From contig JAHBUK010000003.1 in the NCBI GenBank assembly GCA_019638115.1, forward strand, positions 744,001 through 808,000: a stretch of DNA of 64,000 nt, given 5' to 3'. The position numbers and the translations under genes are program-made. Position 1 is the stretch's first letter. Each line of letters starts with the position of its first letter. This DNA is from Flavobacteriales bacterium (GTDB taxonomy: Bacteria; Bacteroidota; Bacteroidia; Flavobacteriales_F; PHOS-HE28). The notes under the pieces were generated by a model, which did no database searches, was not told where the DNA came from, and saw only the letters and a program-made list of their open reading frames with translations. This document shows positions 26,784 to 34,995 of the stretch, one piece after another.

Positions 26784-29700
26784 ATGAAGAACAAAAGAGA
26801 CCTTCTGAAAGCCTTGCTGGTAGCGCCTTTCCTGATACCCCCCCCCCCCTATAGAACCCTTGGGTGACAAGGGTTTCCCGAGCATGCACCCCACAGCTAA
26901 CGCCCAGAGCGACGCTTGGGTGGTAGGCTCGCAGTGGGTGGACTTGTATGGCGCCCAACAAACCGGCACTTGGCCGGTGACCAGCCTACCCACCTCTGCG
27001 CTTCCCAACCGCTACAATGGAACGCCTGCACTTCGCAGCCAACTTACGCGGAGCGATGGCGATGGCAACTTGCTGTTCTTCGCCGTGGATGGGAACATCT
27101 ACGATGCCGATGGGTATCTCATCGCGGATGCATCCGGGGCCAATTGCCAGGAATGCGTGGAGCCTGGCATCATGGAAATGCTGGCTGTTCCTGTGCCGGG
27201 TACCTGCGGGATCTTCTACCTGCTAGCCAGTAACCTGGCCGTATCTGAACCGGGTCTGAACACACAGATAAGTGTGAGCATCCTGGACATGAACCGACCC
27301 AATATCTACTGGCCAGGTCGGTCTGGAGCACTCGTTGGTCTGTTGGATGGAGGGCTTACAAATTCCTTCCCGGCATTTGCAGACTGGGAAAGCGATCTGT
27401 TCGACACCAATCCTAATTCCCAGAGCGATTTTTCAGCGCTGTTGAGCGTGCCCGAGCAGTACGACGTGAAGTTGAGCTCTCCGATGATCCGGGTGATCGA
27501 CCCGGACGGCGATGGCAGTCTCTACTGGATGTACTTTGTGTTGAAGGACAAAGTGTTGGCCTATCGCATTGATGCCACCGGCATCCACTTGGTGAACACC
27601 GGTAACAGTGGGGCCATACCCACCTACTTCACACCCCAGCCCTTGGGACAAAAAAGTTACATGCGAGATGCTGATGTGGCCATGGACGGAGATGGTCGGG
27701 TCGCACTGGTCATGGGAGATTGCCACTTGAGCGTGTTCGATGCCAATACCGGACAGACCAATGGCTTCCATCAACTGCTCGTGCTGCGATTCAATGCCAA
27801 CACCGGTGCCTTCATCAATGCTACCGGGCACAATTTCGATGGCAGCAGTGGCAAACCGGATATGATCTGTTCTGTTGAGCCTACAGCGCCCGCCCCTAAC
27901 GTGCGCCCCGGTCTGAATGGCCTTGCGTTCATCAACAACGCCACCCAAGTGCTTTTTACGGGGGAACGCGTGAATGCCACCAACACCGGCTGGGAACCCA
28001 CCATTGGCATCTACGACCTTGCCACCCAGACTTGGGAAGACCTCGTGACCACTTTGAACATTGCCGACCCTGTGAAGTACGTGCGCTCGCGGCTGCATCG
28101 CAACCGCATGCCCGGCAGCAATGCACTTGCGGTGTACATGCCCTACCCGATCTCGGGCACCACCGGCAATGTGGCCGCATTGCTGGATGTGGAGAACAGC
28201 GGGAACATCCAGTTCGTGCCAACGCTGGCAACGTCCGGACTGAGCGCAGCCCATCAACTTGAGTTGCCCGCAGGAACCTCATCAGGCTTCTTGCAACCCA
28301 TCTTCCTCAATACCCAGATCACCAAGGACGACTATGTGGTGAACGCCTTGGGCGACTTCAGTGGATACTGTTGCGCATACTACACCTTGCTGGATGCGGA
28401 GCCGGGTTATGAAGCGGCTGGTATAACCACGTGGAGCCCCACCAATAATCCATTCGGCAATGTCGCGGAAGTAACCTTTGCCAGCGATCTGGTCATTCCT
28501 TCAGGTGCGGGCTTGACCATCAATAACATGACCATACGCTTCGGCCCCAACGCGAAACTCGTGGTCCAGCGAGGTGCGCGGCTGATCGGCAATAACTCCA
28601 CTTTCACAGCCATTGAGTGCAATACCCGCTGGCCGGGTATCCGGGTGGAGGGTACCACCAATGACCCGGAGCAGGAAGGTGCTGGGCATGGCCGCCTGCA
28701 GTTCATTGGCTGCACGGTGGAACATGCCGTAACCGGCATCTATGGCGGCAGGCAGCTATCCTTCCCGCCGAACAACTTGTATTTCGGCGGCTGGGTGGTA
28801 GCGCGCAACAGTGTATTCCGCGATTGTGTGAACGGTGTTCACTTTGAGAACTACCGTCGCCTGTCCGGGTCGGGCCAGGAGACTCCGAATGCCAATGAAT
28901 TCTCCGGTTGCCAGTTCCGCACGACCAGTGCGTGGCGCGGCGGCAACCCTGCTCGTGGCGCACATTTGTTCCGAGTGAATGGGATCATGTTCGTGGATTG
29001 TTCATTCGTGAACGAAATTCCCGAGCTGTTCAGCAACCCAGCGCATCGGGGCATGGGCATCCAAGCAAGAATGGCAGGTTTCCATTGCTTAGCCACCACG
29101 GCAGATCCAGCAAGCCGTTTCGAGAACTTGCATGTGGGGGTTTACAGCAGCTCCTACCTACCCGATGTGAGCTACACGATCCGCGGTGGCGAGTTCGTGA
29201 ACAACTTCAAGGGAGTGGTGGACCTTGCCGGACGCGATGGTGTGATCGTGGACAACAGCTTCAGCACCCTGCAAGCGCCATCCGGCACCATCACCCAGAC
29301 CAGCATCGGCATCCAACTCTTCCAAACGGAACGCTATGCCGTGGAGAAGAACACCTTCACCAGCCCGGGCAACTCCGTCCCGAGTACGGGTATCTGGTTC
29401 ACTGGGCCAACCCAGTCCGACAACCGCATCTACGACAACGACTTCACCGACCTCAACTTCGGCTGCGTAGTGGAGGGCAGGCACTTAGCGGAGGGTATGT
29501 CCCAAGACATTGCACCAGGGCTTCAATTGCTGTGTGGTCAACACGAAAACAATCAAGTGGACCAACTGATACTGGGCCAGACCGGATATGTCCGATATCG
29601 GCAAGGCTTACCCAGTGGCGGAAATACAACCGCCAACAACACCTTCAATAGCGCGGTGGATTGCAACACCAGCGGCAACAACCCAAGCTTCCACCCCTTC

Positions 29701-31017
29701 GTGCTCTCGCCTTTCGGCAACTACCCATTGGAGGTGTACTACTACGTCTACCAGAACCTGAGCAGCCCGCAATTGCGACCGGATTGTATCCAAGACGCAC
29801 AAGGGAATCCGATCAGCTTCATCGGGGAGTGGTTCTACAAGCTCCAACCCGTAAACGAGGGAGTACCTTTCAATAGGGAAGTACACTGCGCGGACCACGA
29901 TCATGTGCGCCAAGGCCCTGGCCCGGAACGTATTCCGGAGCTTACCCAGGAATACCTCCTGAAACAACAGGAACTCGCCAGTGCATACGCTCAATATACC
30001 GGCAATGTGGATAAGATGCGCACGGGCGATCTTGTCGGGATGATCGACCATCAACCCTGGCACCCCAGTCACACACTGCGCGACAGCCTGATGGGCAATT
30101 ACCCCTTGAGCGACTCCGTGATGAAATCGCTCATCTTCCGCACGGAGCCCATGGATGAGTGGCACCTGACCCAGGTGTTGTTGCAGAACAGTCCGCTAAC
30201 GAGGTGGGTGTGGGGCTACCTGGATCATGTTCAACCCTTGTCTCCCTATTTCCTTGATCTGCTGCGCCAGCACCAGAACGGCATCGGTTTGCGCGGAACA
30301 CTGGAATTGGAAGTGGTGCTGCGCCAGCAGGAGCGTACGCGCCTGATGCATGAACTGCTCTATGCTTGGGCACAGGACAGCGTATCTTCAGGCAAACAGG
30401 ATGCATTTGCAGCCATCTACCTCGCCGACAGTTTAAGCGATGGGTACCGCGACCTGTTCATGCATCGCCTGGAGTATGACCCAGCAGCTGCGAATAACAT
30501 GCACCAGTACCTGTATGACCGGCGCGACGCGGACCTTGTGAGTTGGGGGCAACTCCACACTGCCCTTGGTGGCGATTGGTCGTTGGCCGACAGCGTGCAA
30601 GTGGCACAGCTCATGGACCTTGCTTTGGATCAGGACAGCAAAGCATCTGCACTTGCATGGGCGAGCCTCTTGGAGGCTGGTGTTTGGGATAGTATCCCCA
30701 GTCCAGAACCCCCGGCCTTGTTCAAGAACCTCTGGCAACCACGCCGCACGGGCAATGCACCGAGCCTTCAAGAGGTACTGCGTGTACTGCCCAACCCGGC
30801 GAGCGATCGCATTGCCTTCGCCTATCCGGAAGGCATGGAGCGTGGCGAGCTGCAGATCTTTGATGGCCAAGGTCGCCTTGTACAGACCTTGTTGCTGCAA
30901 GGCCAACGCGGTTTAACCGAAAGTAGTGTCAAGCACCTCGTACCTGGTTTGTACGTCGCACGCCTTTCGTTCGATGGTCTTAACTTAGGGGCTGTTCGAT
31001 TCACGGTCGCTCGATGA
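26784..31017 (+). CDS. Large beta-helix T9SS surface protein, out of frame at a poly-C tract (phase-variable or sequencing error)
   Basis: From ATG 26784 the frame encodes a signal-like start (KNKRDLLKALLVAPFLIPPP) but hits a stop at 26865 after a run of 12 C. Removing one C joins it to a long frame of about 1,385 residues ending at 31017, giving about 1,410 in all. The body has a propeller-like N-terminal half (residues about 50-530 of the long frame), a right-handed parallel beta-helix (about 550-900, e.g. IECNTRWPGIRVEG, SVFRDCVNGVHFEN), a helical region, and a C-terminal T9SS sorting domain (VLPNPASDRIAF, GLYVARLSF). It probably sits on the cell surface in some role such as adhesion. As assembled, initiation would need a TTG or later ATG without a signal peptide. 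The stop overlaps the next gene's start (ATGA). Confidence 0.8.
26838..26849 (+). repeat. 12-C homopolymer in the 5' coding region
   Basis: Twelve consecutive C lie 54 bp into the coding sequence of the beta-helix protein. An 11- or 14-C tract would keep the signal-like start in frame with the body, while 12 or 13 C gives early termination. Confidence 0.9.
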
Positions 31018-32504
31018 GGCTCTTACAAACGCTGTTGTTCACTTTGGGCGGAGGCTTAGTTGCCTCCGCCCAAAGCGGCTTCATTGTGCACCTGGACACC
31101 ATTCAAGCTGGCCGAAATGGCTTTGCTACTTCAGTAAGAACCTTGCCTGATGGGTATTTGCTGTTCACCCAGCAGTGGTCCTTTGAATATTTCAATAAGG
31201 AGCACATTTACATCCGCAAGTTGGATCCGGAGGGTAACTACCAGTATCAACTGGATCACTGGGCGGGTGACGATCGCCGCTTCGACCTGGGGTACATCGA
31301 TGCGGTGGCCTCCAACGTGGATGGTTCATTCTCTGCCGTTATCAATGAAGGGCGTGGATACGACGCCGAACATTGGCTTTACCGTTTCGACCAAAGCGGA
31401 GACACCATCGGCCGGTCCTTCATCCTCTCCTACCCCTTTTCAGATTCGATAACACTGGCCGTTCGGCAGCTTCGTTCCACCACTGATGGAGGGCATGTAT
31501 GGTGTGGCTTTCATGCCATCTCCAATACGAACACGCGTGCCCTGATCGGGCGGTCTGATAACAATGGCGACACGCTCTGGACCCGAAAATTCGGGGCTGC
31601 AGGACAGGCGTATACCGCAGTGGGAGTTGCCGAGTATTTCGATGGCGGGTATCTCCTTACCGGCTATCGGATCGGTCCGCCAAGTTTGGATAAAGGTTTC
31701 TTGATCCGAACCGATGCGGAAGGCAATGAACTATGGCGGCGCTTCTTTGGCAACCGGGCAGACGTGAATGGCGCTGTTCGTGTTGCAGCCGATGGCAGCA
31801 TCTTCACATGGAGTGAATACAGGGATCCTCAATGGCCATCGCTCTGGCAACAGATGATGCTGAGCAAATGGGACCAAGAGGGTAACCTTGTTTGGCAGCG
31901 CAAGGTGAACTACAACCGCTTTGTTGGAACCTACGACCTTGAGCTGTTGGATGATGGTTCGATGGTGGCTACGGGCACCGCATTCCTGCAAGGTGTGCTG
32001 ATCAAATTCTCCGCTGAAGGCGACAGCCTTTGGTCAAGGGGATATAGCTACACCAACGACCTCCATAAGTTCTTCGATGTGGAGCCCACCAGTGATGGCG
32101 GCTTTGTCTGCACAGGCGCAGCAGACCGTTACTTTCCATTGGATCCCCAATACCAGACCAGCCAGATGATCTGGGTGGTAAAGACCGACAGCCTGGGCTG
32201 CGTGGTGCCCGGCTGCCACACCGTGGGCGTGGAGGAGTACCTGTTGGACCTCAACGAGCACCTGCACGTGTGGCCCAACCCCGTGGCCAGCGGCACGCCG
32301 CTCTCGCTCAGCTTCACCCCACCGCCGGAGTTCGCCGCCAAAGGCCCGTTGCGCGTGGTGGTGCTGGATGCAGCGGGCAGGTTGGTGCTCGAACAAGCGC
32401 TACCCAAGGGCGGTCATCCCGATGGGATCGTCCACACCCTTGATGCACCCGCATTGGCCAGTGGTACTTACCACCTGCACCTTCCGCAACAACCCCTGCG
32501 ATGA
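31014..32504 (+). CDS. Secreted propeller-type T9SS protein with truncated sorting domain
   Basis: A 496-residue protein. Its signal peptide is LLQTLLFTLGGGLVASAQ. The body is a run of repeated blades, each with a DGG or DGS turn and a G-D-x-L-W strand (DNNGDTLWTRKFG, DQEGNLVWQRKVN, SAEGDSLWSRGYS), like the delta-60/SBBP propellers of Bacteroidota. A T9SS sorting domain begins at HVWPNPVASGTPLSL, but after ASGTYHLHL the frame runs into sequence belonging to a different gene and stops six residues later. The last strand needed for sorting is missing, so secretion by T9SS is doubtful. The start overlaps the preceding stop (ATGA), so the two are coupled. Confidence 0.85.
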   Translation: MRLLQTLLFTLGGGLVASAQSGFIVHLDTIQAGRNGFATSVRTLPDGYLLFTQQWSFEYFNKEHIYIRKLDPEGNYQYQLDHWAGDDRRFDLGYIDAVASNVDGSFSAVINEGRGYDAEHWLYRFDQSGDTIGRSFILSYPFSDSITLAVRQLRSTTDGGHVWCGFHAISNTNTRALIGRSDNNGDTLWTRKFGAAGQAYTAVGVAEYFDGGYLLTGYRIGPPSLDKGFLIRTDAEGNELWRRFFGNRADVNGAVRVAADGSIFTWSEYRDPQWPSLWQQMMLSKWDQEGNLVWQRKVNYNRFVGTYDLELLDDGSMVATGTAFLQGVLIKFSAEGDSLWSRGYSYTNDLHKFFDVEPTSDGGFVCTGAADRYFPLDPQYQTSQMIWVVKTDSLGCVVPGCHTVGVEEYLLDLNEHLHVWPNPVASGTPLSLSFTPPPEFAAKGPLRVVVLDAAGRLVLEQALPKGGHPDGIVHTLDAPALASGTYHLHLPQQPLR

Positions 32505-34995
32505 ACGCTGGAAGGGCATCGAACTCCATGGCAACTTCGCACAGCACCAAGGCGGTTTCCCCTATCCGGAGCACCAAGGCTTTCTGCTGCTGAACAACAG
32601 CACGGTGAAGAATGCCGAGATCGGTGTGCTGGTGGCGCATCGCAATGCACAAGGCAACATCGTGAAGACCAAGGAGGGTGGTGTGCTCCGCACGCTGAAC
32701 GGCACCCGTTTCGAGAACAACCGCCAGGGCGTGTTCTTCCGGCCCTACCAGAACTTCAACCCCACCACCGGTGTGAAGCTGCGCAACCTCAGCCGCTTCA
32801 ACAACACCACCTTCACGGTGAACGCCGACTATCCGGAGCGCAACACCAACTACGACTTCATGCACCACATGCAGCTGTGGCGCGTGGATGGAATCCAGAT
32901 AACGGCCTGTGCCTTCAAGAACGAACTGGCCGATAACTTCTTTGCCTCCACCGGCAGCTACCCCGGCAGCCAATACCTGGGCTACGGCATCTACAGCCTG
33001 GATGCCGATTACCGCGTGCAGGCCCAATGCACCGCCAACCCGCCGCCCGGCCCCGGCCAAGCCTGCCCGGTGGGCGAACACAACCCCACCCTCTTCCAAG
33101 GGCTGGACCACGGCATACACGCCCGCACCGGCACCACCTTGCGTAACTTCACCGTGGACCGTGCTCAATTCACCGACAACATTGCAGGGGTGTACACCGA
33201 AGGCGTAATCGGATACAAAGTGGTACACAGCCTCTTTGAGGTGGGGGGTAGGAATGTGGATCTGACGAATTCAATTGAGGAGTTCTGGGATGACCATCAC
33301 CGTGGCTTGTATTCCTACACCGGCCACGCCTTCATCCCCGACTTCAACCACTTCGACCGTAGCGGCCCTGCGCAGGCCGAAGGCATTGTGATCGGCTACA
33401 GCCGGGATAACAACGACATGGTCTTCGGCAATTCGGCCGAAGACATCGACAATGCCTACGTGGGTGAGGGCATCTGTCTTTCGCTTGATCCGGAAGGACC
33501 GAACATCGGCTTGCAGCTGCTCTGCAATGACAACGAGATCAACGCTTACAACCTGACCGCTCGGATCGCTTTGAGCGCTGACTTGGATGAATGGCCAAGT
33601 CATGGTATTCGTGCTTCCCAAGGCGACAATTACCGCGCCGCTGGCAACACCTTCGACCGGGACCTGACGGTGCTGGACGATAGCGATTACCGCAACGACA
33701 CGGAGCGGGCCTTCGTTTACTTCTACGAAGGGGAGAACACCGAGTACCAACCTGCCGACTACAATGCGGACCTGATCGGCCTGTTCCCCGTTGTGGGTGG
33801 TATGGAGGAGCCCTGCGCCTCACGCATGTTGGTGATCGTTACCGAAGACCCACCGGGCATGGTGATCGCCGGAGAGCACCTGAAGGAAATGAAGCTGGCC
33901 TATGGCAATACCCGCTACCAGTACGAACAGTTGCTGGATGGCGGGAACACGGACGAAGTGGTGCAGCAGATCGTGGATTCCTGGCCGCAGGATGTTTGGG
34001 ACCTGCGCGACCAACTCCTGGCCATGAGCCCCTACCTGAGCGATACCACACTGCGCAAATTGACCAACTCGCCCACGGTCCCCGATGCCATAAAGACCGA
34101 GATCCTGATCGCCAACCCCGAAGGAGTGTTCTTCCATGGCATCGTGCCCTGGATCCTTGCCGAAGAGCTTCTTCCCACCTACATGGTGGCGCAGATCGTG
34201 GCCAGTTGGGACCAACGGACCTACCGATACACCTTGGAGAACGACATGGGGCATTTCCACTCCGCCATGAGCCAGGCCGCTACACGCTTGCTCAGCTACC
34301 ACGCGGCGGATAGCACCTATGACCACTTGGACAGCTTGATCACCACCTGGCAGGAGATCCGCACACCAGCAGCCCGCTACTCAGAGGCATTGGGATACCT
34401 GGAACGCGGGCGATACACCAACGCGGCGTACGCGGTGCAAACCATTCCACAAGAGCATAAACGGCTCAACCATAAGTACCTTTCGGAAAAGGACCGGATG
34501 CTGGGCTACATTTCCTTCCTCGAAAGTGTGCATGTGAGCGGCCGCGAATTGAATGAACTGGACAGCACCGAAGTGGCACAACTGCAAAGCCTGATCGCTG
34601 GCAAGCACGACCGGCCCGCAGTGTGGGCGCAGAACCTGCTGTGCTTCCATTACGGGCTTTGCAGCCCGCCGCACACCGGTGGCAAGAGCAGCACACCCAA
34701 GGCCTTCCCGCGTTTGGAGAACACCGAAGGAGTGGTTGAAGGACCGCAGCTCGGCCTCTTGCCGAACCCTGCTTCTGTGTACGTGGCAGTTAACTACGAC
34801 CTGAAAGCAGCAGCGGACCGGGCCTACTTGTTGGTACGCGACCTGGGTGGCCGAGAGGTGAACATGCAGGTGCTTGGGAATGCGGAAGGCCAGGTGGTGA
34901 TCGACACCCGAAGGTTACCTGCCGGTGTGTACACGGTTGAACTGCACAACGCAGGCCAACGCTTGCTCACCCAAAAACTGATCGTGCAGCCATGA
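32467..34995 (+). pseudogene. 5'-truncated beta-helix T9SS protein gene
   Basis: From about 32473 the frame encodes 840 residues that begin inside a beta-helix domain (CTFRNNPCDERWKGIELHGN). This aligns with STFTAIECNTRWPGIRVEG near residue 580 of the large protein encoded at 26784-31017. The rest matches that protein in order: beta-helix, helical region (LLDGGNTDEVVQQIVDSWPQ, MSPYLSDTTLRKLTN) and C-terminal T9SS sorting domain (LLPNPASVYVAVNYDL, AGVYTVELHN). The first 570 or so residues, signal peptide and start codon are missing. Upstream codons in this frame overlap the preceding gene antithetically and look meaningless. It is either a natural deletion remnant or an assembly artefact. Confidence 0.8.

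Follow-up and report, generated by a model that had tools for sequence, protein, structure and literature searches.

The window under study is a stretch of 64,000 nucleotides (C3:744001-808000) from a 4.06-Mb Flavobacteriales genome in nine contigs. On its forward strand, an ATG at 26784 opens a short frame whose translation, MKNKRDLLKALLVAPFLIPPPPYRTLG, is terminated by a TGA at 26865, and a run of 12 C residues begins 54 nt downstream of this ATG. Behind the run lies a frame of 1,388 codons that is one base out of phase with the ATG. Because the repeat unit is not a multiple of three and the run sits between the ATG and the long body, its length sets the frame. The first-pass annotation of this DNA, made from the sequence alone, had proposed the same ATG, C run (26838-26849) and stop as parts of a possible phase-variable switch, and all three were confirmed on the sequence, as was the long frame behind the tract, at 1,388 codons rather than the roughly 1,385 first claimed. 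The features of the locus are as follows.

26784..26837, + strand: start codon and first half of a putative signal peptide (MKNKRDLLKALLVAPFLI), including the conserved DNA module ACCTTCTGAAANNNTTRCTGGTAGCG
26838..26849, + strand: 12-C tract, the proposed slippage switch, which at its assembled length offsets the two parts by one base
26851..31017, + strand: giant secreted protein body, with 1,388 codons before its stop codon and without a signal peptide of its own; full-length homologues in genomes G010 and G003
26865..26867, + strand: TGA at which the ATG frame ends when the tract has its assembled (OFF) length
26905..28290, + strand: N-terminal domain, beta-propeller-like (AlphaFold confidence medium to low; Foldseek matches mostly beta-propellers)
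28408..29220, + strand: right-handed beta-helix-like region (AlphaFold core, PDB matches, Beta_helix/NosD in homologues)
30787..30969, + strand: C-terminal type IX secretion system (T9SS) sorting tail, just below the curated cut-off (PF18962, E 2.8e-4, 21.6 bits)

No start further upstream could supply the body with a signal peptide, since its frame is closed there by a TGA at 26833-26835. Starts located 3' of the tract (TTG at 26860 and ATG at 26884) were also considered and rejected, as they yield no signal peptide. The tract itself is longer than chance would provide, with no C12 run in any of 100 dinucleotide shuffles. The second-longest C/G run in the window measures 7, and C/G runs of at least six bases number 15, fewer than the 48 given by a first-order expectation. 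When the two parts of the window copy are joined, the second half of the resulting signal peptide is polar (IEPLGDKGFPSMHPTANAQ), and thus the expressing (ON) state of this copy may be weak. The joined frames of relatives take a putative, typical signal-peptide form, MKTTDLLKPLLVAAFVAP..LNPLVGAGLLMAQ, and regularly include a Pro or Gly run within or beside the hydrophobic core; the first-pass annotation had called the Pro-rich stretch encoded by the tract unusual.

Near full-length homologues of the body, with 38-40% identity, are present in other genomes of the same genus, and a search of genome contigs for loci related to the body protein returned no match. The domains first assigned to the body hold with some qualification. 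For the beta-helix, the AlphaFold model has a strand-rich core with pLDDT values of about 85-93 in places, and the top PDB matches from Foldseek are mostly beta-helix proteins, at weak E values of about 1e-3 to 1e-2 and with TM-scores kept low by the large unreliable share of the model. Homologues match Beta_helix/NosD, and no beta-helix Pfam match was found in the window copy. The sorting domain is matched by both PF18962 and TIGR04183 (20.9 bits), with Por_Secre_tail scores of 21.6-26.6 bits (the higher value from the genome search) that stay under the cut-off of 27. The same family exceeds the cut-off in a neighboring paralogue (32368-34995) and in some relatives, and it has at least 150 matches in the window's genome, most of them above the cut-off, which makes a large T9SS secretome likely. 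As a separate observation, the propeller-like gene at 31014-32504 has a T9SS-type tail that is apparently cut short at its end, and it overlaps the paralogue at 32368-34995, which lacks the 5' part and signal peptide of the C12 gene's protein. From the sequence, the region 31014-34995 looks like the product of an old deletion that fused two T9SS genes near 32480.

Evidence on whether the broken frame is a switch or simple decay comes first from relatives that share the 5' module. Across the genus, DNA of the ACCTTCTGAAANNNTTRCTGGTAGCG type precedes a C tract at ten sites, spread over five genomes. None of the ten copies is in frame, and no ON copy was found in this module family. A frame break without a repeat, which the first-pass annotation had named as a point against a switch, is formally seen in the two module copies that lack a long tract, L186, whose body has decayed to 78 codons, and L191, where the run is interrupted (C5AC6) and the frame is broken. 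L191 is a 97% identical orthologue of the C12 copy L189 and is for this reason read as a recently interrupted tract. Still, its body remains open for at least 767 codons, and this is the strongest single observation against pure slippage.

Such copies could also be taken to mean that the frame was broken once and that the gene is now a decaying pseudogene. Module copies L186, L188 and L190 are indeed decayed, retaining 78-110 codons, and the paralogue at 32368-34995 has lost its 5' end. However, the window body is open for 1,388 codons, and several out-of-frame relatives have bodies that stay open throughout or as far as the available sequence reaches, with low dN/dS. For the out-of-frame pair L189 and L191, dN/dS is 0.10 over 454 codons (dS 0.21), with values of about 0.13-0.20 in other close pairs and near-saturation in distant ones. 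These low values indicate that the out-of-frame bodies are, or recently were, used, and part of the purifying selection could predate the present phase. Decay of the window gene is therefore considered very unlikely.

A broader view can be obtained from a comparison set of 45 genomes from the same uncultured Flavobacteriales genus, many of which are metagenome assemblies. The named records that match the genus are metagenome-assembled genomes labeled Flavobacteriales or Bacteroidetes bacterium, and an isolate name (Gw_SlAct) suggests activated sludge, a habitat deduced from isolate names only. C/G tracts of at least 11 bases are present in 30 of the 45 genomes, and 117 places with such tracts were sampled in stretches fetched from them. 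At 16 of these places the tract lies no more than 80 nt behind an ATG that opens a frame of at least 800 codons, versus 0.9% of random positions, and with a threshold of 400 codons the count rises to 28 of 117, versus 5.1%. The random positions were drawn from the same stretches, making this a local rather than a genome-wide control.

Pfam matches of the tract genes are mainly to domains of secreted proteins, namely SprB repeats, Beta_helix/NosD, Por_Secre_tail, subtilase, reprolysin-like, PKD with P-domain, and CHU_C. Tract genes that match no secreted-protein domain include a metallophosphatase (L147) and a third family of about 840-960 codons (L116:98-2986, L131:3-2864 and L173:774-3307), in which a C14, C11 or G11 tract directly follows the start codon; L116 lies at a contig end. 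Searches against Pfam and PADLOC gave no match for this family. Outside the genus, two further bacterial families of this class, represented by genomes G069 (L225, L226 and L229) and G039 (L237), have C11-C12 runs directly before or within signal-peptide-like starts of long frames, and the arrangement may therefore extend beyond one genus.

The SprB-repeat family, which was also gathered by protein search independently of tracts, displays a wide range of repeats at its 5' ends. Poly-G runs of 8, 9, 10, 12, 12, 13 and 15 and poly-C runs of 7, 8, 10, 10, 10, 12, 14, 15 and 16 are found, together with (AC)10 and the 7-mers GCACGCC (five copies, two genes) and GCACACG (four copies, one gene). These repeats are positioned at or just before the putative hydrophobic core of the signal peptide, and their units of 1, 2 and 7 are alike in being indivisible by three and able to slip. 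About ten members carry no repeat at the 5' end, and the fraction that does is not an unbiased estimate, since some loci (e.g., L001, L005, L144, L168 and L185) were fetched for their tract. The presence of different repeat types at one signal-peptide site across species points to convergent gain of slippable repeats. Two SprB-family genes of the window's own genome show the same arrangement, one with a C10 tract in frame (L005, C1:316504-316513) and one with a C15 tract out of frame (L001, C1:650498-650512), and a lipoprotein-like gene there (L003) has an 11-G tract mid-gene, in frame.

Tracts were also encountered in other positions. In the same genome, a 13-base tract (L002:5029-5041; C1:800328-800340) is located at the 3' end of a small gene resembling helix-turn-helix regulators, where a change in length would affect the last residues only. 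Two further tracts, L158:5063-5075 (C13) and L071 (C10), lie up to about 100 nt upstream of SprB-family starts with an ordinary signal peptide, and these are possibly promoter-type switches.

Sequencing or assembly error must be accounted for when evaluating any homopolymer of this kind, in which case the true tract would have the in-frame length and the gene would be intact. Long homopolymers are error-prone, many genomes of the genus were assembled from metagenomes, and some of the tracts that sit at contig ends or within low-complexity sequence, with lengths of 19-25 bases, have the look of artefacts. Error does not, however, generate repeats at the sites where secreted proteins encode their signal peptides, and it does not place (AC)10 or 7-mers there. 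Furthermore, copies with short tracts (C7 to C9 and C5AC6) are also out of frame, and the C10 and 11-G tracts of the same genome are in frame. The caution about sequencing error voiced in the first-pass annotation thus fails for the genus-wide pattern of repeat types and sites and is apt for the single window copy, for which an intact gene hidden by error is judged unlikely.

The distribution of phases provides another line of evidence. The count of phases covers 39 genes whose bodies are long or open, each with a manually selected start codon; L019, L122, L124 and L157 (contig ends or low-complexity stretches, possible artefacts) and L116 were excluded. Only four genes (L132, L183, L204 and L005) are in frame, whereas 16 are in phase 1 and 19 in phase 2. 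The shortage of in-frame copies has a p value of about 0.0009 if equal phases and independent genes are assumed, and relatives are not independent. Copies in frame thus number under one third (4/39), which counts against a switch, as does the module family in which all copies are out of frame. Populations that are mostly OFF would give such a shortage. A set of orthologues offers a direct display of tract-length change, with G9 in frame in L204, G10 out of frame in L203 and G8 out of frame in L218; the proteins of L204 and L203 share 96% identity.

With 35 of 39 genes out of frame and their bodies nevertheless kept, programmed frameshifting also deserves consideration. According to this explanation, the ribosome or RNA polymerase would slip on the homopolymer, for which C runs are possible sites, and the protein would be made constitutively at some level. 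A fixed frameshift was initially suggested by an early dominance of phase 1, which disappeared in the wider count. There is no single conserved frame relation (phases 0, 1 and 2 number 4, 16 and 19), and the nearly equal frequency of both wrong phases, along with the existence of in-frame copies, argues against a fixed frameshift direction. Also, (AC)10 and 7-mer repeats are not known to act as ribosomal slip sites. Frameshifting in place of a switch is accordingly regarded as highly improbable, and slippage at a low level may accompany phase variation.

Taken together, the varied repeats with units other than multiples of three at signal-peptide sites, the occurrence of all three phases, and the open, out-of-frame bodies under purifying selection favor the phase-variation reading. 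The C12 tract is very probably a simple-sequence-repeat contingency locus that serves as a phase switch for the giant T9SS surface protein, and membership of this gene in the phase-variable class is supported by its anatomy and by comparison with relatives. The number of C residues would change through slipped-strand events during DNA replication, presumably within populations, so that the start and the initial half of the signal peptide come into, or fall out of, the frame of the type IX-secreted body. In the assembled state, which would be OFF, only the 27-residue peptide would be made, and the body, deprived of its signal-peptide start, would not be exported. With a tract whose length restores the phase, the frames would be joined, and ON cells would be expected to export the protein. 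The C12 gene would then belong to a set of secreted proteins that are switched by repeats at multiple loci in the genus, a set whose use is probably escape from phages or predators that recognize the surface, or varied adhesion.

A wider reading is plausible but tentative. Free-living Flavobacteriales might possess a multi-locus phasome in which T9SS signal peptides repeatedly and independently gain C, G, AC or 7-mer repeats, yielding a mostly silent, combinatorially switched surface that perhaps defends against phages or predators, and tract modules may pass between protein bodies. Switch sets of this type are usually described in pathogens. If real, a repeat-switched secreted set in uncultured Flavobacteriales from the environment would run counter to this, and existing metagenome reads would allow it to be tested. 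In that event, gene callers would be splitting or dropping many giant surface proteins in genomes of the genus, and surveys should read tract lengths rather than consensus sequences.

The closest parallel is offered by the opa genes of Neisseria, which carry CTCTT repeats in the region coding for the signal peptide, with the number of units setting the frame at several loci per genome. The C12 gene resembles them in having, within the putative signal-peptide coding sequence of a surface protein, a slippable repeat whose unit is indivisible by three, and such repeats likewise occur at several loci. The two systems differ in phylum and habitat, in repeat type (mostly C/G homopolymers here, with dinucleotide and 7-mer repeats in relatives), and in cargo, which is secreted by the T9SS here and consists of outer-membrane beta-barrels in opa; the present genes are known from sequence alone. 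In Campylobacter, Helicobacter and Neisseria, C or G tracts of about 7-16 bases reside in surface-related coding sequences at many loci with ON and OFF phases. The genus examined here shares the coding-sequence tracts, the many loci and both phases, but those bacteria are host-associated and often pathogens, whereas the present ones are uncultured members of the Flavobacteriales, some of them, judging by isolate names, from activated sludge. The poly-G/C contingency genes of the three genera have been reviewed (PMC11868660). Within the Bacteroidota, the two sources consulted describe phase variation in Bacteroides by invertible promoters through site-specific DNA inversion, and they link the phase-variable surface to coexistence with phages (PMC11868660; PMC8375218). 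Bacteroides likewise has a phase-variable surface, but in those sources one that changes by inversion rather than by repeat length in coding sequence. The open-access PMC papers searched contained no account of phase variation through repeats in Bacteroidota, in Flavobacterium or among T9SS proteins. Overall, the candidate mechanism appears to be of a known kind, that of Neisseria opa, and the lineage, the T9SS cargo and the multi-locus extent outside pathogens look new.
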